From contig JAKIUF010000020.1 in the NCBI GenBank assembly GCA_021647705.1, positions 1 to 64,000 of the forward strand: a stretch of DNA of 64,000 bases. The letters are read 5' to 3'. A program made the translations under genes and the position numbers. Positions 3,616-20,806 of the stretch are shown here, piece after piece. The stretch is from Gammaproteobacteria bacterium (GTDB taxonomy: Bacteria > Pseudomonadota > Gammaproteobacteria > SZUA-152). The stretch's first letter is position 1. Each line of letters begins with the position of its first letter. The notes under the pieces are model-generated. The model had not been told where the DNA came from, searched no databases, and saw only the letters and a list, made by a program, of their open reading frames with translations.

Positions 3616-5079
3616 ATGAACGCAACTTTGAACTCAGCCCTGAACATGATAAATGTCACAGCACATAACAACGGTTTAGTCCCCGTGCCGACTCTGGTGA
3701 TCGGTCTGGGACACAGCGGTTTGTCTTGTGCGCGTTTTCTGGCGCAACAGGGCGTGCCGTTTGCGGTGACGGACAGTCGCGAACAGCCGTCGGGTATTGT
3801 CGCCTTGCGTGCCGAATGTCCCACAGTGAAAATTGGCCTGGGTGGTTTTGATGAAAAGCTGTTTACCTGGGCGCAGCGTCTGATTGTCAGTCCAGGTGTT
3901 TCATTGCGCGAGCCGTTGATTGTCGATGCGCAACGTCGTGGTGTGGAAGTGATTGGCGATATCGAAGTTTTTGCACGCATGGCGCAGGCACCCATTGTGG
4001 CCATTACCGGTTCTAACGGGAAAAGTACCGTCACTTCACTGTTGAGTGAAATGGCAAAAACCGCTGGCCGGGATGTGCGCACGGGCGGCAACATCGGCAC
4101 ACCTGCGCTGGAATTGCTCACGGAAAACGAGCCGGATTTTTACCTGCTGGAATTGTCGAGCTTTCAACTGGACAGTACACATGCCCTGCATGCCGCAGCG
4201 ACGGTGGTGCTGAACATCAGTGCGGATCATCTGGATCGTTATGACGATCTGGCCCATTACGTGGCGAGCAAGCAGCGTATTTACAGTGATGCCGGACTGG
4301 CTGCACAGGGTGTGGCGGTGTTTAACCGTGATGATTCACAGGTGGTGGCAATGCTGGCGGGTAATGTGCAACAGCAAAAAATCAGCTTTGGTCTGGGTGT
4401 TCCCGCTGAAGATCAATTTGGGCGCATCAGCCTGAATAACGAAAGCCTGAATAATAAAAACAATGAATTATGGTTAGCGCGCGGTACAGAAGCCTTGCTG
4501 CCGGTTGCGCAGATACGCATGGCAGGTGAACAGGCTCAGGCCAATGCGCTGGCAGCACTGGCGCTGGGCGAGGTGATGGGGCTGCCCATGGCAGACATGT
4601 TAGCCACGCTGAAAACTTTTCCCGGTCTTCCGCATCGTACGCAGTTTGTTGCTGAAATTGATGGCGTGCGCTGGATCAATGATTCCAAGGGTACCAATGT
4701 GGGAGCCACGCTTTCTGCGGTACAGGGTTTGGCTGGGCCGCTGGTATTAATTGCAGGCGGGCAGGGCAAGGGTGCTGATTTTTCACCGCTGGCGGATGCC
4801 ATAAAAGACAAGGTACGTGTTGTTATTTTGCTGGGTGAAGATGCGGCACTGATGGAAAAAGCCCTGGCAGATGTTGTGTCGGTGGTGCGCATGTCTTCTG
4901 TGAAGGGTTCCATGGAAGCAGCCGTGGCTCAAGCGCAGTCGCTTGCACAACCTGGCGATACGGTGCTGTTGTCACCGGCTTGCGCCAGTTTCGATATGTT
5001 TTCCGGTTTTGTTGCGCGGGGTGAGGCCTTCATGGCAGCCGTACGCGCATTGCCAGCGGTTGAAGGGGATGGGTCATGA
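3616..5079 (+). CDS. murD: UDP-MurNAc-L-alanine:D-glutamate ligase MurD
   Basis: Cytoplasmic ligase adding D-Glu to UDP-MurNAc-L-Ala. 487 residues, slightly long because of an N-terminal extension of about 20 residues before the nucleotide-fold motif VIGLGHSG. The ATP loop ITGSNGKST is near residues 130-138, followed by GGNIGTPALELL, LELSSFQLD, NISADHLDRY and NDSKGTNVGAT, all typical of MurD. No clear Shine-Dalgarno precedes 3616; an internal ATG at 3646 is an alternative start and would give a more usual N-terminus. The end overlaps ftsW by four bases (ATGA), so ftsW translation probably depends on murD. Confidence 0.95.
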   Translation: MNATLNSALNMINVTAHNNGLVPVPTLVIGLGHSGLSCARFLAQQGVPFAVTDSREQPSGIVALRAECPTVKIGLGGFDEKLFTWAQRLIVSPGVSLREPLIVDAQRRGVEVIGDIEVFARMAQAPIVAITGSNGKSTVTSLLSEMAKTAGRDVRTGGNIGTPALELLTENEPDFYLLELSSFQLDSTHALHAAATVVLNISADHLDRYDDLAHYVASKQRIYSDAGLAAQGVAVFNRDDSQVVAMLAGNVQQQKISFGLGVPAEDQFGRISLNNESLNNKNNELWLARGTEALLPVAQIRMAGEQAQANALAALALGEVMGLPMADMLATLKTFPGLPHRTQFVAEIDGVRWINDSKGTNVGATLSAVQGLAGPLVLIAGGQGKGADFSPLADAIKDKVRVVILLGEDAALMEKALADVVSVVRMSSVKGSMEAAVAQAQSLAQPGDTVLLSPACASFDMFSGFVARGEAFMAAVRALPAVEGDGS

Positions 5080-6326
5080 GTGCTGATACGATTCCCGTGC
5101 TGCGTAATTTTATCCATACTGCGAATGTGACAGCGAATCAGCGTCATGGGCGCTTCCCGCTGGATGCAAGCCTGCTGGCAGCTGCCATTATGTTGCTGGC
5201 CTTGGGGTTGGTGATGGTGGCGTCGGCCTCGGTGTCCATTGCCGAACGTCAGATGGATGACCCGCTCTTTTATTTATGGCGACAGAGCGCTTTTGTGGTG
5301 CTGGGTTTGCTGGTGGGTTTTGCGGTGTTGAATGTGCGCCTGGTGTACTGGGAACGCCTCGGCCCCTGGTTTTTGCTGCTGGGCATGAGTTTGCTGGTGG
5401 CGGTGTTGCTACTGGGGCGTGAAATTAATGGCAGCGTGCGTTGGTTATCGCTGGGGCCGGTGAATTTTCAGCCGTCGGAAATGATGAAGTTGTTTATCGT
5501 GATTTATCTGGCGGGTTATCTGGTGCGGCGTGGTGACGAAGTCCGCGAATCCGTGAAGGGTTTTCTCAAACCCATGCTACTGGTAGGTCTGATCGGTGTG
5601 TTGCTATTGCTGGAACCTGATTTTGGTGCTGCCGCTGTTATTACTGCCACAGTACTGGGCATGATGTTTTTAGGAGGAGTACGGCTGTGGCAATTTGCTG
5701 TGTTGTTCCTCAGCATGTCCGCCGTGGTGGCTGCGGTGGCAGTGTCTTCCCCTTACCGGGTAGAACGTCTGACGTCATTTGTGAACCCCTGGGCAGACCC
5801 GTTTGACAGTGGTTTTCAGCTCACTCAGGCATTGATTGCCTTTGGTCGCGGTGAGTGGATGGGTGTAGGCCTGGGGAGCAGCGTGCAGAAACTGTTTTAC
5901 CTGCCCGAAGCACATACAGACTTTTTGTTTGCCGTACTGGCCGAAGAGCTGGGCCTGATCGGTGTGGTGCTGGTGATTGGTTTGTTTGTGCTGATTGTGT
6001 GGCGTGCCTTTGTGGTAGGGCAGTCAGCGGCACAGGGCGGTGATCGTTTTGGTGCTTATACCGCTTATGGTATTGGCATATGGCTGGGTTTGCAGGCGTT
6101 TATTAATCTCGGTGTGAACATGGGTATGCTGCCCACCAAGGGGCTGACCCTGCCACTGATGAGTTATGGCGGCTCCAGCATTGTGATGAGTTGTGTGGCA
6201 GTGGCGTTGTTATTGCGGATCTCCCATGAGTATCCGGTGGATAAGCAACCAGCGGCACGACGGACGGTGCCGACCTTACAAAAAACAGCACAAAAAACGG
6301 CGACCAAGCGGAGGCGCAGTTCGTGA
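5076..6326 (+). CDS. ftsW: SEDS-family peptidoglycan polymerase FtsW
   Basis: Polytopic inner-membrane glycosyltransferase of the SEDS family, which polymerises lipid II at the septum with its cognate transpeptidase FtsI. 416 residues with about ten transmembrane stretches. SEDS signatures visible include LGREINGSVRWLSLG, NFQPSEMMKLF, LLEPDFGAA, LPEAHTDFLFAVLAEELG and the late block LPLMSYGGSS. A short basic, Ala/Lys-rich cytoplasmic tail follows. The ATG overlaps the murD stop. The stop at 6324-6326 overlaps another ATG (TGATG), the same junction type as at murE/murF and murF/mraY, but here that ATG opens into repeat sequence rather than murG. A GGAGG lies at 6311-6315 upstream of it. Confidence 0.95.
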   Translation: MSADTIPVLRNFIHTANVTANQRHGRFPLDASLLAAAIMLLALGLVMVASASVSIAERQMDDPLFYLWRQSAFVVLGLLVGFAVLNVRLVYWERLGPWFLLLGMSLLVAVLLLGREINGSVRWLSLGPVNFQPSEMMKLFIVIYLAGYLVRRGDEVRESVKGFLKPMLLVGLIGVLLLLEPDFGAAAVITATVLGMMFLGGVRLWQFAVLFLSMSAVVAAVAVSSPYRVERLTSFVNPWADPFDSGFQLTQALIAFGRGEWMGVGLGSSVQKLFYLPEAHTDFLFAVLAEELGLIGVVLVIGLFVLIVWRAFVVGQSAAQGGDRFGAYTAYGIGIWLGLQAFINLGVNMGMLPTKGLTLPLMSYGGSSIVMSCVAVALLLRISHEYPVDKQPAARRTVPTLQKTAQKTATKRRRSS

Positions 6327-6553
6327 TGGTCAAGTGTGAAAAAATCCAACGCAGAGACGCAAAGGCGCAGAGAACGCAGAGGTTTTTGGAGGTAATGAAA
6401 ACCTTCCTGCTTTTTCTTTGCGTTCTTCGCGCCTCTGCGCCTTTGCGTTGGATATTGTCTTTTGGCAAAAGCCACAAACAATTTGATTTTTCTTTGCGTT
6501 CTTCGCGCCTTTGCGTCTCTGCGTTGGATGTTGCTTTTGGGAGGCAGCCATGA
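6326..6553 (+). CDS. Repeat-borne bridging ORF between ftsW and murG (doubtful protein)
   Basis: 75-codon open frame lying entirely in the inserted repeat. Its ATG overlaps the ftsW stop (TGATG) with GGAGG about 10 bases upstream, and its TGA overlaps the murG ATG (ATGA). It resembles only the similar frame between murC and murB: both begin with a basic, QR-rich stretch (EKIQRRDAKAQRTQRFL) followed by a hydrophobic FLCVLRASAPLRWI. Composition follows the repeat, not protein constraint, and I doubt a functional product. Its plausible role is to carry ribosomes across the insertion so that murG stays coupled to ftsW. Confidence refers to translation, not function. Confidence 0.3.
   Translation: MVKCEKIQRRDAKAQRTQRFLEVMKTFLLFLCVLRASAPLRWILSFGKSHKQFDFSLRSSRLCVSALDVAFGRQP
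6343..6529. repeat. Dispersed CGCAGAG-type hairpin repeat, ftsW|murG copy
   Basis: Left arm 6343-6382 (purine-rich strand, CAACGCAGAGACGCAAAGG...) and two right arms, 6416-6453 and 6492-6529 (CTTTGCGTTCTTCGCGCC...GTTGGAT). The reverse complement of the left arm matches the second right arm almost base for base over about 39 positions, so a strong hairpin is possible in DNA or mRNA. The second right arm looks like a duplication of the first. The murG ribosome site GGGAGG at 6539-6544 follows directly. Related copies are at 9141-9281, 9370-9483 and 10441-10478. Confidence 0.85.
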
Positions 6554-7662
6554 GCAGCCAGCAACCACTACGCATTATGGTCATGGCCGGTGGTACCGGT
6601 GGTCATGTGTTCCCCGCATTGGCTGTGGCTGATGAACTGCGTGCGCGCGGCGTGGAAGTCAGCTGGCTGGGCACACGTCAGGGACTGGAAGCCGAAGTGG
6701 TGCCGCATGCCGGTTTCCCCATTGATTATGTACAGGTGTCCGGTTTGCGCGGCAAGGGTGTGCTGAGTCTGCTGATGGCACCGGTGAAACTACTGCTGGC
6801 TTTGTCGCAAAGTTTGAAAATTATTTCCCGACGCCAACCTGCGGCAGTGCTGGGCATGGGTGGTTTTGTGACCGGCCCCGGCGGGCTGGCGGCATGGCTG
6901 AAGCGGAAGCCATTGCTGATTCACGAACAGAATGCCCATGCCGGGTTGACCAATCGTTTGTTGGCACCGCTGGCGCGACGAGTGATGGAAGCATTCCCTG
7001 GCACGTTTGCAGTTTCCAAAAAAGTGCTGCACACCGGCAATCCCTTGCGCAAAACATTCATTGATGCGGTGCCTGATAATGCGAGCGTCAATTCAGACAA
7101 ACAGACACTGCGCCTGCTGGTGGTGGGCGGCAGTCTCGGTGCGGCGCGACTTAATGAAGTGGTGCCACAGGCGCTGGCAGCACTGGATGCTGCCGCTCGT
7201 CCCGAAGTTTGGCATCAGGCAGGCAAACGCAACATTGACGATGCACGTTCTGCCTATGCGGCAGCGGGTATTGATGCACGACTGGAACCGTTTATTGATG
7301 ACATGGCAGCTGCTTATGCCTGGGCTGACGTGGTGTTATGTCGTGCCGGTGCCATGACCATTGCCGAAGTGGCGGCTGCCGGTGTGCCGTCCATTCTGGT
7401 GCCTTTTCCTTTTGCCGTGGATGACCATCAGACAGCCAATGCGCGTTATCTGGCAGATGCACAGGCCGCCGTGTTACTGCCGCAAACGCAGCTGACAGCC
7501 GAACGTTTGGGTGAGCTTTTATTATCGCTTAATGCCGACAAATTAACGGCCATGGCCACAGCCGCACGCAAACTGGCATTGCTGGACGCCACCACGCAAG
7601 TGGTCGAGCAATGTCTGGCGGTGGCGCGGGGCGACGATAAACAGGAGGTGGCCCATGGCTAA
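6550..7662 (+). CDS. murG: UDP-GlcNAc:lipid I N-acetylglucosamine transferase MurG
   Basis: Peripheral inner-membrane glycosyltransferase that adds GlcNAc to lipid I, giving lipid II for FtsW and the PBPs. 370 residues, two Rossmann-like halves. The N-terminal glycine loop [12 protein letters not shown] is at residues 14-25, then [21 protein letters not shown] and [15 protein letters not shown]; the C-terminal half has [27 protein letters not shown] and [14 protein letters not shown]. The start at 6550 is fixed by GGGAGG at 6539-6544 and by the family N-terminus; reading further upstream only adds repeat-derived sequence. The last eight bases overlap murC. Confidence 0.97.
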
Positions 7663-9124
7663 GCAAAAAGTCAAACAAAGGGTCGAGCGCAGAGGACAAG
7701 ACCTCAAGGGTGAATCACATCCGGCCTGGGGACGAATTCATCGTGTGCATTTTGTCGGCATCGGTGGTGCGGGCATGGGTGGCATTGCCGAAGTGTTATC
7801 TAATTTAGGTTATGCCGTATCCGGTTCGGATCTGCGGGAAAATGCCGTAACCCGTCGTCTGGCTAAGCTGGGTGCCAAAATATTTACAGGGCATGATGCA
7901 ACGAACGTGCAGGACTGCGATGTGGTGGTTACGTCCACTGCTGTGTCGGCAGATAACCCGGAAGTCGTGGCCGCGCGTGAAGCGCGTATTCCGGTAGTGC
8001 CGCGCGCTGAAATGCTGGCTGAACTGATGCGTTTTCGTTTTGGCATTGCCATTGCGGGAACGCATGGCAAGACCACGACTACCAGCCTGACGGCGAGCCT
8101 GCTGGCCGAAGACGGACTGGACCCCACCTTTGTTATTGGCGGTCTGCTCAACAGCGCCGGTTCCCACGCACGCCTTGGCGAGAGTCGTTATCTGGTGGCC
8201 GAGGCCGACGAAAGTGATGCCTCGTTTTTGTACCTTGCACCGATGATGGCCGTGGTCACCAATATTGATGCTGACCATATGGAAACCTACGGCGGTGATT
8301 TCGCTAATCTGCGTCAGGCCTTTCTCGAATTTTTACATCACCTGCCTTTTTATGGTCTGGCAGTGATGTGCATTGATGATCCGGTGGTGCGCGAACTGCT
8401 GCCGGAAATTTCCAAACCGGTGCTGACCTACGGATTTGAATCCACAGACGCCGATGTGCGCGGACTGGATTTGCAGCAACAAGGACCACACACCCTCTTT
8501 CGGGTGCAACGCAAGGATCATGAAACCGAACTGGCAGTGACGCTGAACATGCCCGGTGCGCATAACGCACTGAATGCATTGGCGGCCATTGCCGTGGCCA
8601 CCGAACTGGGTGTCAGTGACGAAGCCATTCAAAACGGGCTGGCCGGTTTTGAAGGTATTGGCCGACGTTTTCAGGTTTATGGTGAATTGCAAACCACCGC
8701 AGGTAACGTGCTGTTGGTAGATGACTATGGTCATCACCCGCGTGAAGTGGAGGCCACTCTGGAAGCAGCCCGCAAGGCTTGGCCGGACCGGCGTTTGGTG
8801 CTGGCCTTTCAGCCACATCGTTTTTCACGCACCCGTGATCTGTTTGAAGACTTTGCCAAAGTGCTTGGTGAAGCGGATGTCTTATTGTTGCTGGAAGTTT
8901 TTGCAGCGGGAGAGCAGTCGCAGGGCGGTGATGATGGCCGTGCCTTGTGTCGTGCGATACGCACCCGTGGGCAACTGGACCCGGTATTTGTGGAAAATGT
9001 GGATGATCTTGCAACGACGCTGCAAGGCGTGTTGCGTGAAGGTGATGTGTTGCTGACGCTGGGTGCGGGTTCCATTGGTGTGGCGGCAGCGCAGTTGCCG
9101 GAACAGCTGAAGGAAGGTGCGTGA
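7655..9124 (+). CDS. murC: UDP-N-acetylmuramate:L-alanine ligase MurC
   Basis: First Mur ligase, joining L-Ala to UDP-MurNAc in the cytoplasm. 489 residues. After a basic N-terminal stretch of about 28 residues come the nucleotide-fold motif [17 protein letters not shown], the ATP loop AGTHGKTTT near residues 134-142, [34 protein letters not shown] and [13 protein letters not shown], all standard for MurC. The ATG has a strong AGGAGGTG at 7642-7649 inside murG. The stop (9122-9124) overlaps an ATG as TGATG, but this start again opens into repeat DNA rather than into murB. Confidence 0.97.
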
Positions 9125-9507
9125 TGATCCAGTTTGAAAAAATCCAACGCAAAGGCGCAAAGACGCAGAGAACGCAGAGGTTTTTGATGTTGACTGTGCA
9201 AGCGCTGCAAGTTTTGGATGTAACGAAAATCATTCTGATCTTTCTTTGCGTTCTTCGCGCCTCCGCGCCTTTGCGTTGGATGTTGTCTTTTGGCCGTGGT
9301 TACAAACAGTTAACAACCTCAAACAGCGATAAAATGAGGGCAAAGTCTGTGATGGCTTGGTGTGAAAAAACCCAATACAAAGACGCAAAGACGCAGAGAA
9401 CGCAAAGGTTTTTGAGGCTGGCTGTATGTGAATCAGTTGGGTTTTCTTTGCGTTCTTTGCTCCTCTGCGTCTCTGCGTTGGATTTTAAAATGCGGAGGCA
9501 CGCATGA
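9124..9507 (+). CDS. Repeat-borne bridging ORF between murC and murB (doubtful protein)
   Basis: 127-codon open frame filling the whole murC-murB gap. Its ATG overlaps the murC stop (TGATG), its TGA overlaps the murB ATG (ATGA). It contains two successive copies of the repeat-encoded pattern: FEKIQRKGAKTQRTQRFL then FLCVLRASAPLRWML, and later CEKTQYKDAKTQRTQRFL then LLLCVSALDF. There is no domain resemblance and composition is that of the repeat. Similarity to the ftsW|murG frame argues that the same element inserted at the same type of stop/start junction. A coupling role is inferred; a functional protein is unlikely. Confidence 0.3.
   Translation: MIQFEKIQRKGAKTQRTQRFLMLTVQALQVLDVTKIILIFLCVLRASAPLRWMLSFGRGYKQLTTSNSDKMRAKSVMAWCEKTQYKDAKTQRTQRFLRLAVCESVGFSLRSLLLCVSALDFKMRRHA
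9141..9281. repeat. Dispersed CGCAGAG-type hairpin repeat, first copy in murC|murB
   Basis: Left arm 9141-9180 (AATCCAACGCAAAGGCGC...) and right arm 9244-9281 (CTTTGCGTTCTTCGCGCC...) are near-complementary and enclose about 63 bases of unrelated spacer. The left-arm flank (GAAAAAATCC) and right-arm flank (GTTGGATGTTGTCTTTTGG) match the ftsW|murG copy, so the mobile or copied unit extends a little beyond the arms. Confidence 0.85.
9370..9483. repeat. Dispersed CGCAGAG-type hairpin repeat, second copy in murC|murB
   Basis: Left arm 9370-9408 (begins CCCAATACAAAGACGC) and right arm 9446-9483 (ends CTCTGCGTTGGAT), with about 37 bases between. More diverged from the other copies, especially in the left arm. 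Preceded by GTGTGAAAAAA, as at ftsW|murG (6334-6344). The right arm is followed by the murB ribosome site GGAGG at 9493-9497. The 379-base murC-murB gap holds these two repeats and about 85 bases of unassigned sequence between them. Confidence 0.8.
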
Positions 9508-10406
9508 ACGCACGGCCTCTGATGACCGAATTGCGTGGCAACTTGTTGTTAGACGAGCCCATGTCAAAACACACAAGCTGGCGTATTGGCGGCCCGGCAG
9601 ACCGCTATTACCAGCCTGCGGATATTGTAGATTTGTCACTGTTTTTATCGCAGTTGCCGGAAAACGAGCCGGTTTACTGGCTGGGTCTGGGCAGCAATCT
9701 GCTGGTGCGTGACGGTGGTATTCGCGGCACGGTAATTGCAACCAGTGGCGTGGTGGATGGATTGGAACAAATTGATGAAAAAACAGTGCGCGCCGAGGCT
9801 GGCGTGGCCTGCGCCAAAGTGGCCCGTTTTTGCGCGCGCGCAGGTCTTTCGGGTGCGGAGTTTCTGGCCGGTATTCCCGGCACCATGGGCGGCGCGCTGG
9901 CAATGAATGCAGGAGCCTTCGGCGGTGAAACCTGGGAGGTAATAACCGCTGTTGAAACGCTGGATCAACAGGGTCAATGCCAGCATCGCCAGCCTGAAGA
10001 CTTTGAAATTGCCTACCGCCATGTGACCGGTCCAAAGGGCGAATGGTTTGTAGCTGCACAATTACAGTTAGAACCGGGCGGTGAGCCAGAAGCATTGCAG
10101 GCACGTATTAAAGCACTGCTTGCCAAACGTGGTGACAGTCAGCCCACATCGCTGCCCAACGCCGGTTCGGTGTTTCGTAATCCCGAAGGTGATTTTGCGG
10201 CACGCCTGATTGAAGCTTGTGGTTTAAAAGGACAATGCGAAGGTGCGGCCTGTGTTTCGGATAAACACGCCAACTTTATTATCAATACAGGTGGCGCGAC
10301 AGCATATGACGTTGAAACCCTGATCGAACGAATCATGCAAGAGGTTGAAGAAAAACAGGCGGTGCAGTTACAGCGTGAAATACACATCGTAGGTGAGGCA
10401 GCATGA
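9504..10406 (+). CDS. murB: UDP-N-acetylenolpyruvoylglucosamine reductase MurB
   Basis: FAD-dependent, NADPH-using reductase producing UDP-MurNAc. 300 residues, about 40 shorter than the E. coli/Pseudomonas type I enzyme, with the motif set of the shorter type II-like forms: GLGSNLLVRDGGIRGTVI, AGIPGTMGGALAMNAGAFGG and NAGSVFRNP. In that last motif Ser222 is the expected proton donor. The C-terminus carries SDKHANFIINTGGA. The start follows GGAGG at 9493-9497. In the dcw cluster it sits between murC and ddl as usual, but is bounded on both sides by CGCAGAG-type repeat sequence. Confidence 0.95.
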   Translation: MNARPLMTELRGNLLLDEPMSKHTSWRIGGPADRYYQPADIVDLSLFLSQLPENEPVYWLGLGSNLLVRDGGIRGTVIATSGVVDGLEQIDEKTVRAEAGVACAKVARFCARAGLSGAEFLAGIPGTMGGALAMNAGAFGGETWEVITAVETLDQQGQCQHRQPEDFEIAYRHVTGPKGEWFVAAQLQLEPGGEPEALQARIKALLAKRGDSQPTSLPNAGSVFRNPEGDFAARLIEACGLKGQCEGAACVSDKHANFIINTGGATAYDVETLIERIMQEVEEKQAVQLQREIHIVGEAA

Positions 10407-10498
10407 CACTCTTCACAACGATTTTTTTAACAATATTTTCCTTTGCGTTCTCTGCGTCTCCGCGTCTTTGCGTTGGATTTTCCGGAGGTCGTTTATGA
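10403..10498 (+). CDS. Short bridging ORF between murB and ddl (doubtful protein)
   Basis: 31-codon open frame too short for routine listing. Its ATG overlaps the murB stop (ATGA, 10403-10406) and its TGA overlaps the ddl ATG (ATGA, 10495-10498). The second half is the solitary repeat arm read in a different frame from the other two bridging ORFs (SPRLCVGFSGG). A GAGG at 10394-10397 could load ribosomes. It makes the murB-ddl junction continuous for translation, the third such case in the cluster. A functional peptide is unlikely. Confidence 0.25.
   Translation: MTLFTTIFLTIFSFAFSASPRLCVGFSGGRL
10441..10478. repeat. Solitary right arm of the CGCAGAG-type repeat, murB|ddl
   Basis: CTTTGCGTTCTCTGCGTC...GTTGGAT matches the right arms at 6416, 6492, 9244 and 9446, but no left arm is present in the 88-base murB-ddl gap, so no hairpin can form here. 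The arm is followed by CGGAGG at 10483-10488, the ddl ribosome site, so the arm-then-Shine-Dalgarno layout of the other copies is kept. Confidence 0.8.
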
Positions 10499-11451
10499 GC
10501 AGCTTTGGCAAAGTTGCCGTACTCATGGGCGGACTGTCAGCGGAACGTGAAGTTTCCTTGCGTAGCGGTGCAGCGGTGTTGACCGCGTTACAACGACAAA
10601 ATATTGATGCACACGGTGTGGATGTGGGACACGACATTGTTTCGGTTTTACTGGATGGCCAGTTTGACTGTGCGTTTATCGCCCTGCACGGACGGCGTGG
10701 TGAAGATGGTGTGATTCAGGGTGTACTGGAAACGCTGAATATTCCCTATACCGGTTCCGGCGTATTAGGTAGCGCACTGTCCATGGACAAGATACGCAGC
10801 AAACAGGTATGGCAGGCAGCAGGTTTGCCGACTCCGGCTTTTGCCGTGTTGAATGATGACAGTGACTGGTCTGCTGTGGTTGATGAGCTGGGTTTGCCGC
10901 TGGCGGTAAAGCCGGTGCATGAAGGCTCCAGTCTGGGTGCGACACGGGTGGAGCATTTGAAAAATCTGGAACCGGCCTGGCGTAATGCGGCGGAATTTGA
11001 TGCAACGGTAATGGCCGAGCCCTGGATCATTGGTGAAGAATACACGGTCGGTATTTTGGACGGTGAAGCTCTGCCGGTGATTCGTTTGGAAACACCGCGT
11101 GAGTTTTACGATTACGAAGCCAAATATAACACCGACGATACACGCTATCATTGTCCCAGTGGTTTGTCTGCGACTGACGAACAACAATTTCAGGCATTGG
11201 CACTGAATGCATTTACAGCACTGGGTGCGACGGGCTGGGGGCGTATCGATTTCATGTTAGACAAAAACGGTGCCCCTTGGTTACTGGAAAACAATACTGT
11301 ACCAGGGCTGACGAATCACAGTCTGGTACCCATGGCTGCGCAGGCGGCGGGTATTGATTTTGATGAATTGATTTTGCGTGTTTTATCAGCAGCAAGGGTA
11401 TCGGCAGTAACGGTGCCGGACAGTGAAGGGGAAGTCGGCAATGGGTGCTAA
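10495..11451 (+). CDS. ddl: D-alanine:D-alanine ligase
   Basis: ATP-grasp enzyme making the D-Ala-D-Ala dipeptide used by MurF. 318 residues. N-terminal AVLMGGLSAEREVSLRSG, then ALHGRRGEDGVIQGVLE, the PYTGSGVLGSALSMDK block, the ATP-grasp region KPVHEGSSLGATRV and the metal-binding end GAPWLLENNTVPGLTNHS. That last motif is slightly unusual, as many Ddl enzymes read VNTSPGMT there. The start is the ATG after CGGAGG. The same frame is open upstream through the repeat arm into murB, but that is not family sequence. It overlaps ftsQ by 11 bases. In this context it is the DdlB-type gene. Confidence 0.95.
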   Translation: MSSFGKVAVLMGGLSAEREVSLRSGAAVLTALQRQNIDAHGVDVGHDIVSVLLDGQFDCAFIALHGRRGEDGVIQGVLETLNIPYTGSGVLGSALSMDKIRSKQVWQAAGLPTPAFAVLNDDSDWSAVVDELGLPLAVKPVHEGSSLGATRVEHLKNLEPAWRNAAEFDATVMAEPWIIGEEYTVGILDGEALPVIRLETPREFYDYEAKYNTDDTRYHCPSGLSATDEQQFQALALNAFTALGATGWGRIDFMLDKNGAPWLLENNTVPGLTNHSLVPMAAQAAGIDFDELILRVLSAARVSAVTVPDSEGEVGNGC

Positions 11452-20651: not shown

Positions 20652-20806
20652 ACGAGTGACGTGTTATAAACGCAGAGGCCGCAGAGGCCGCAGAGGCCGC
20701 AGAGACGCAGAGACGCAGAGACGCAGAGACGCAGAGAAAAACATTAAAAAACTTTACGTCCTCTGCGTGAAATACCCGGTGATTCTTTAAAAACAGGTAT
20801 TTTTAG
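20652..20806. repeat. Composite CGCAGAG repeat with expanded tandem array, secA|argJ copy
   Basis: A unit shared with 56893-57003. Both read ACGAGTG-C-GTTATAAACGCAGA, then a purine-rich array, AGAAAAACA, CCTCTG(C/T)GT and CGGTGATT, ending in a T-run. This copy has expanded: three 9-base CGCAGAGGC units (20671-20697) are followed by four 8-base CGCAGAGA units (20698-20729) and a last CGCAGAGAAAAAC. The other copy has only about three irregular units. Left CGCAGAG arrays can pair with CCTCTGCGT at 20759-20767. Related in sequence to the arms in the dcw operon. Confidence 0.8.

Follow-up and report, generated by a model that had tools for sequence, protein, structure and literature searches.

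How can repeat DNA settle between the coupled genes of an essential operon? The question is raised by a 64,000-nt stretch of a Gammaproteobacteria bacterium of the SZUA-152 lineage (assembly GCA_021647705.1, contig JAKIUF010000020.1, positions 1 to 64,000 of the forward strand; hereafter the window). Its division and cell wall (dcw) operon, which runs from murE through lpxC, carries inserts of an inverted repeat at the ftsW-murG, murC-murB and murB-ddl junctions. A first-pass annotation of the window had reported an open reading frame (ORF) through each insert (6326-6553, 9124-9507 and 10403-10498), starting on the upstream stop codon and ending as ATGA on the downstream start, and had suggested that ribosomes could cross the inserts in this way and avoid polarity. 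The repeats are real and the coordinates were confirmed. Comparison with relatives supports the proposal as far as sequence can: the bridging frame is conserved far beyond chance and has been under selection, and this conservation is what would be expected if ribosomes pass along it.

The comparison drew on 20 dcw stretches from 18 other genomes of the family; three further family genomes (G005, G022 and G023) lacked a usable dcw match. Across two genera, 25 of the 26 junctions that bear an insert, either a repeat or a remnant of one, are bridged exactly from an upstream NTGA to a downstream ATGA. This tally counts a 19-nt murB-ddl gap in G003b as an insert remnant and leaves out six repeat-free gaps of 14-68 nt, none of them bridged (ftsW-murG in G012 and G014; murB-ddl in G001, G010, G011 and G012). 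In three of these genomes (G001, G010 and G011), the ddl frame runs without interruption all the way back to the murB stop, so that their junctions resemble empty sites at which the N-terminus of Ddl is longer. The bridges differ in length. They measure 231 and 261 nt at ftsW-murG (with 365 nt for the exception, G006, which has no single bridge), 387, 159 and 150 nt at murC-murB (258, 186, 189 and 318 nt in the second genus), and 96, 87 and 27 nt at murB-ddl (183, 189 and 123 nt in the second genus). Counted per junction and genus, 15 of these 16 distinct lengths are divisible by 3 (binomial P = 7.7e-7), and relatives differ by a net 30 nt at ftsW-murG, 228 nt (one repeat period) at murC-murB, and 9 and 60 nt at murB-ddl. 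Over the 25 bridged inserts (4401 nt), the bridge frame contains no stop codon, as compared to 40 and 42 in the other two frames. Further repeat-like stretches, recognized by eye, lie inside the inserts of G013 and G020 in the second genus, and there the frame is still kept. The third genus, represented by G015, lay outside the first set and was examined last. Its murB-ddl insert is bridged from ATGA to ATGA over 189 nt, and a contig end interrupts its murC-murB insert, each of the two pieces having no stop in the bridge frame and five and one, respectively, in the others. Judged from match positions alone, no large insert is apparent in G018 at murC-murB or murB-ddl. Frame conservation and stop-codon avoidance among relatives, both of which the first-pass annotation had named as checks, thus came out in its favor.

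Could the bridges nonetheless be open by luck, given that their arms consist of 8-base units poor in stop codons? In the source genome, 35% of the frames through other repeat cores are open, and the first-pass annotation had put the chance at roughly one in three per bridge. A core swap proved stricter: when the 42 other complete cores from sampled stretches of the same genome were placed in each window junction in both orientations (84 trials per junction), a bridge resulted in 9, 9 and 16 of the 84 trials, a product of ∼0.002. Taken alone, then, bridging at the window junctions is only suggestive, as the annotation had cautioned, and it is the comparative data that settle the question. The 25 exact bridges among 26 inserts in two genera, the lengths, the count of 0 against 82 stops, the agreement of the third genus and the recurrence of the pattern with other repeats, described below, refute chance at the level of the family, and we regard it as extremely improbable. 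An origin of the inserts in faulty assembly of repeat-rich metagenome bins is more improbable still. One of the nearest named relatives, "Gammaproteobacteria bacterium D96SM.bin.23" (L033), whose MurC is 98% identical to that of the 4.44 Mb source genome, and the further near relatives L031 and L032 ("Chromatiales bacterium 354-166") are, like all near named relatives, gammaproteobacterial metagenome assemblies, and the contig break in G015 falls inside an insert. Nevertheless, G004 and G007, which are separate genomes, have homologous inserts that show point differences as well as clean indels, and the same pattern is present in Thiobacillus denitrificans strain RG, which is not labelled a metagenome assembly.

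What has been kept is the frame and not a peptide. Nine pairs of same-length inserts, which share members, differ at 81 positions, split 27, 28 and 26 over the three codon positions, and 17 of the 80 scored changes are synonymous, where 25-28% would be expected; the even spread and the near-expected synonymous share both argue against constraint on the product. A role of the bridges as genes for small functional proteins is therefore very improbable. If ribosomes do relay through the bridges, they would make these peptides, but the differences are mostly nonsynonymous, and the three window bridges have no NCBIfam match at E 0.001.

The features of the three window junctions are collected in Table 1. 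The insert at ftsW-murG holds one element plus an extra arm, that at murC-murB two elements and that at murB-ddl half an element, over spans of 88-379 nt. The arms of 41-44 nt are 82-90% complementary and constitute terminal inverted repeats. The upstream joints are GTGA, GTGA and ATGA for bridges 1, 2 and 3, and all downstream joints are ATGA. No Rfam match was found at 6250-10600. Over 5076-11451, promoter and terminator matches were fewer than in shuffled sequence (2 vs 3.7 and 4 vs 9.6, respectively), although the inserts contain one weak site resembling a promoter (10412-10439) and one resembling a terminator (6388-6406). Elsewhere in the window, at 20696-20736, CGCAGAGA octamers run head-to-tail between co-directional genes and lack an inverted arm.

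Table 1. Genes, bridging ORFs and associated signals at the insert-bearing junctions, in window positions.
Feature	Position	Strand	Basis or detail
ftsW	5076..6326	+	NCBIfam TIGR02614
Bridge ORF 1, ftsW-murG	6323..6553	+	GTG 6323 or ATG 6326 to TGA 6551-6553; insert 6327-6549
Inverted-repeat element, CGCAAAG-type octamers	6341..6532	+	left arm 6341-6381; right arms 6416-6459, 6492-6532
Present murG ribosome-binding site GGGAGG	6539..6544	+	read from sequence
murG	6550..7662	+	TIGR01133; ATG 6550
murC	7655..9124	+	TIGR01082; stop 9122-9124
Bridge ORF 2, murC-murB	9121..9507	+	GTG 9121 or ATG 9124 to TGA 9505-9507; insert 9125-9503
murB ribosome-binding site GGAGG	9494..9498	+	read from sequence
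murB	9504..10406	+	NF010480/TIGR00179; ATG 9504, stop 10404-10406
Bridge ORF 3, murB-ddl	10403..10498	+	ATG 10403 to TGA 10496-10498; insert 10407-10494, arm 10440-10481
ddl ribosome-binding site GGAGG	10484..10488	+	read from sequence
ddl	10495..11451	+	NF002378/TIGR01205; ATG 10495

Relatives that lack an insert reveal what these junctions probably looked like beforehand. Within the genus, the insert-free ftsW-murG junction reads GTGA in G002 and both G003 contigs and ATGA in G010 and G011, and the insert-free murC-murB junction reads ATGA in both G003 contigs, G010, G011 and G001. Judging from these empty sites, the state before insertion is a 4-nt RTGA overlap, so that a -4 nt overlap of stop and start recurs at every joint, as RTGA in the empty sites and as NTGA and ATGA at the two ends of a bridge. 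Because the empty sites are such overlaps, the former murG start GTG (6323; ftsW stop TGA, 6324-6326) and its ribosome-binding site GGAGG (6310-6314), both located in the 3' end of ftsW as indicated by G002 and G003, would now start the bridge. The first-pass annotation was right that each frame begins on the upstream stop and ends as ATGA, but it had read the beginning as TGATG and the first two junctions as ancestral TGATG joins; the joint is GTGA, the ATG that follows it in the window is part of the insert, and TGATG as the ancestral join is ruled out by the GTGA and ATGA empty sites. We also considered a target duplication of ∼15 nt that would have copied the ribosome-binding site, and found it unsupported: across 12 inserts, the bases preceding the two NTGA ends are no more alike than mismatched pairs (permutation 0.87). 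One metagenome bin (G003, L031 and L032) holds two dcw operons that differ in junction state and are probably two strains.

If the frame were carried by the element itself, as reported for the mycobacterial interspersed repetitive units (MIRUs) discussed below, a fixed-frame ORF and an NTGA duplicated on insertion would account for the bridges with no later selection. NTGA does stand at both ends of every bridge. The repeat in the rest of the source genome, however, behaves otherwise. A 17-mer of the window repeat, allowing up to 3 mismatches, has 344 matches in the genome as compared to 34 for a reversed control, and we sampled 74 stretches (519 kb including the window, some overlapping) around copies among the matches listed; the copies sampled here, and those sampled in T. 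denitrificans, lean toward near-consensus. Core lengths of copies elsewhere fall in all residues mod 3 (22, 12 and 11 for residues 0, 1 and 2), and in the sampled stretches the repeat-bearing gaps between co-directional genes are exactly bridged in 3 of 3 cases within dcw and 0 of 30 outside it. Repeat-bearing junctions with stops other than NTGA account for 25 of these, most of which cannot be exactly bridged by definition: the strict test is unreachable for stops that no start codon overlaps, which makes the "other stop" rows an unfair control. The fair controls for exact bridging are a frame-shift null, the NTGA rows and a looser count that accepts a start of any kind no more than 9-10 nt from the stop and an ORF end within 15 nt of the next start. 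Under this looser rule, only 1 of 29 other repeat junctions is near-bridged (L251:1985, where the ORF stops 7 nt short of the start). By the strict test, repeat-free gaps of 40-400 nt are bridged at 0 of 18 NTGA and 1 of 87 other stops. Gene starts outside dcw came from a simple purpose-written gene caller; in the window, this program placed some known starts wrongly, including those of murD and murC. The frame is not built into the window repeat, and inserts at the same junction vary in length and content, as in G013 and G020, yet remain in frame. A frame borne by the element is accordingly an unlikely explanation. A literature search with the sequence strings of the repeat returned nothing relevant.

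The explanation we favor, and consider very probable on the comparative sequence evidence, is selection for uninterrupted translation by termination-reinitiation in coupled gene pairs, although reinitiation itself is something we infer. Repeats would insert at the 4-nt RTGA overlaps of the dcw operon, and the old start signal within the upstream gene, made up of a ribosome-binding site and an RTG, would then start a short relay ORF through the insert, ending as ATGA on the present downstream start with its own GGAGG. A ribosome finishing the upstream gene could reinitiate on the relay ORF, melt the hairpin, stop at ATGA and reinitiate again, and the gain would be delivery of ribosomes to the downstream genes, perhaps together with protection from Rho-dependent polarity. 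Passages of PMC10666635 describe reinitiation as nearly abolished at stop-start distances of ∼20-38 nt, so that an unbridged insert of the size seen in the window should break coupling; those of PMC12548453 give -4 to +3 nt as the best spacing and also cite synthetic constructs with a weaker distance dependence. The first two inserts are predicted to fold strongly (-108.8 kcal/mol, z -7.4, for the first; -154.9, z -5.9, for the second), and in the predicted fold of the first the murG AUG is paired within a stem whose 7-nt loop holds GAGG.

Is the architecture confined to this family and this repeat? A total of 76 further dcw loci (L035 on, of 80 named) were picked by MurC similarity alone, not every locus holding every junction; a separate earlier look at the named loci had covered 15 of the 80. 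Ten loci have an NTGA upstream and at least 36 nt of extra sequence at ftsW-murG, and in seven of them (L080, L094, L100, L104, L106, L109 and L110) an ORF from NTG ends on a downstream start, although in L094, L100 and L109 the downstream frame is also open and the true start is less sure. Two bridged inserts stand in series at ftsW-murG of L078 (3650-3870), and the first is flanked by a perfect 20-base duplication that comprises the Shine-Dalgarno sequence and ATGA, which illustrates plainly how a joint of this kind can become doubled. The ftsW-murG junction of L082, which has a TAA stop, is not exactly bridged. Betaproteobacteria have the same architecture built from other repeats. At mraY-murD in L104, L063 and L101, the bridge ends in an apparent second copy of the MraY C-terminus (LKLR and stop), as though part of the mraY end had been copied along with the insert. 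Other structures were noted at dcw junctions in passing. At the contig end of L194 (G009), the first 61 matched MurG residues are 89% identical to the window, as compared to 54-84% for the preceding genes, and this end is recombinant or chimeric. The murG-murC junctions of L197 (G019) and L163 (G015) share a gap of ∼220 nt, alike in the two genera, with a terminal inverted repeat of ∼20 bases by eye, which looks like a different small element.

The best-sampled of these other repeats is the ACCACAGAG repeat of T. denitrificans RG (L106, G040), which occurs with exact bridges at mraY-murD, ftsW-murG and ddl-ftsQ. Within 40 stretches (L307-L346, 314 kb) around copies among the matches listed (of 257), 13 of 28 repeat-bearing NTGA junctions are bridged, ten of them outside dcw, where 2.15 would be expected with a broken frame. 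Gap length equals 1 mod 3 at 17 of 27 NTGA junctions (chi-square P = 0.004 vs an even distribution), as compared to 9 of 23 others (P = 0.50), and by the looser rule 20 of 27 repeat-bearing and 6 of 17 repeat-free junctions are bridged (P = 0.015). An alternative looser count, 18 of 54, double-counts three dcw junctions and was not used. The repeat lies between co-directional genes in 58 cases, convergent genes in 4 and divergent genes in 3, often at NTGA, and it may target coupled junctions genome-wide; with this strong bias, a frame carried by the element stays viable for T. denitrificans.

Several observations weigh against selection for a relay. The one clear exception in the family is the ftsW-murG insert of G006 (357 nt), an orthologous insert that breaks the single frame. 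Its first ORF stops 134 nt into the insert, and the second is open from nt 14, with possible starts at 107 (TTG), 164 (GTG) and 176 (ATG), and ends on the murG ATGA; the two overlapping ORFs still cover the insert fully, but the relay is inexact. Substitutions alone are no test of stop avoidance, the probability of seeing no stop being 0.45-0.95 per pair, so the weight rests on the lengths and the frame-specific stops. None of the five repeat-bearing NTGA junctions sampled outside dcw in the source genome is exactly bridged. For T. denitrificans, strict bridging also occurs at 3 of 17 NTGA gaps that lack a repeat, which leaves the excess over this control marginal (13 of 27 vs 3 of 17, Fisher P = 0.057), and the downstream start of a bridge there may lie as far as 45 nt from the gene caller's choice. 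Among the further dcw loci, some inserts read as N-terminal extensions, at ftsW-murG in L102 and L105 and at murB-ddl in L081 and L104, and murB-ddl of L065 is not exactly bridged. Outside the family, murG-murC has no excess of bridges (3 of 8 vs 1.8 expected, one of the three being G019 of the family), in a count made smaller by setting aside "close" junctions, where a start in frame lies near the stop of the upstream gene, the window murB-ddl among them. At junctions whose genes are often separate, most gaps are unbridged even in a loose test (bridged at mraY-murD 6 of 17, ftsQ-ftsA 7 of 19, ddl-ftsQ 3 of 8, murE-murF 0 of 15).

G006 and the N-terminal extensions bear on a further explanation, namely that ribosomes are kept on the mRNA only as a defense against Rho-dependent termination, exact reinitiation being irrelevant. 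Two overlapping ORFs would protect the G006 insert with no exact relay, and N-terminal extensions likewise avoid naked RNA. All 25 family bridges, however, run exactly from the upstream NTGA to the downstream ATGA, and mere coverage needs neither end. We consider Rho protection as the sole cause possible but doubtful; the two aims are compatible, and Rho avoidance may contribute alongside reinitiation.

The nearest known case is that of the MIRUs, here compared by their description only. Passages of PMC12548453 describe MIRUs (Supply et al. 1997) as inserting at start codons with an ORF coupled at -4 nt, an insertion thought to pass with little effect on expression. Like a MIRU, the window repeat is short and dispersed and sits at a start codon, with an ORF that overlaps the downstream gene by 4 nt. 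Unlike a MIRU as described there, it has no fixed-frame ORF and is in frame at the coupled dcw junctions and not elsewhere; moreover, its length varies, the frame survives indels, more than one repeat family is involved, and the genes are essential cell-wall genes. The principle is the same but not tied to one repeat family. Prokaryotic miniature inverted-repeat transposable elements (MITEs), such as Chunjie of Geobacter, are likewise small inverted-repeat elements within operons, and the MITE passages of PMC10969869 make no mention of an exact stop-to-start relay frame. The Rickettsia palindromic elements covered in the same source are also in frame, because they lie inside translated sequence; those elements add residues inside genes, whereas the window frame is a separate ORF between genes. 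Termination-reinitiation at NTGA, as treated in parts of PMC6728339 and PMC10666635, has the same -4 nt joint found at both ends of a bridge, but a plain NTGA overlap has no non-conserved, repeat-made ORF interposed between two real genes. Our literature search, whose scope excluded most subscription papers, found no other description of such a relay besides MIRU.

The usual case for translational coupling is made with reporters; here evolution seems to have repeated the test many times, with essential genes as its subject. The inserts drift in sequence and in length while the stop-to-start frame stays, a selection signature of coupling that could be scanned for in genomes. It is about an even call whether a general rule holds, by which a repeat in a tightly coupled NTGA junction would survive only as a relay ORF whose product has no function or as an N-terminal extension. 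If it does, bacteria would possess a hidden class of ORFs that are under selection to be read but not for any product they encode, insert lengths would be a natural experiment on how far each gene pair depends on coupling, and the repeat of T. denitrificans would resemble a MIRU and use NTGA sites genome-wide. Some of the "hypothetical" short ORFs between operon genes may be relays with no functional product.

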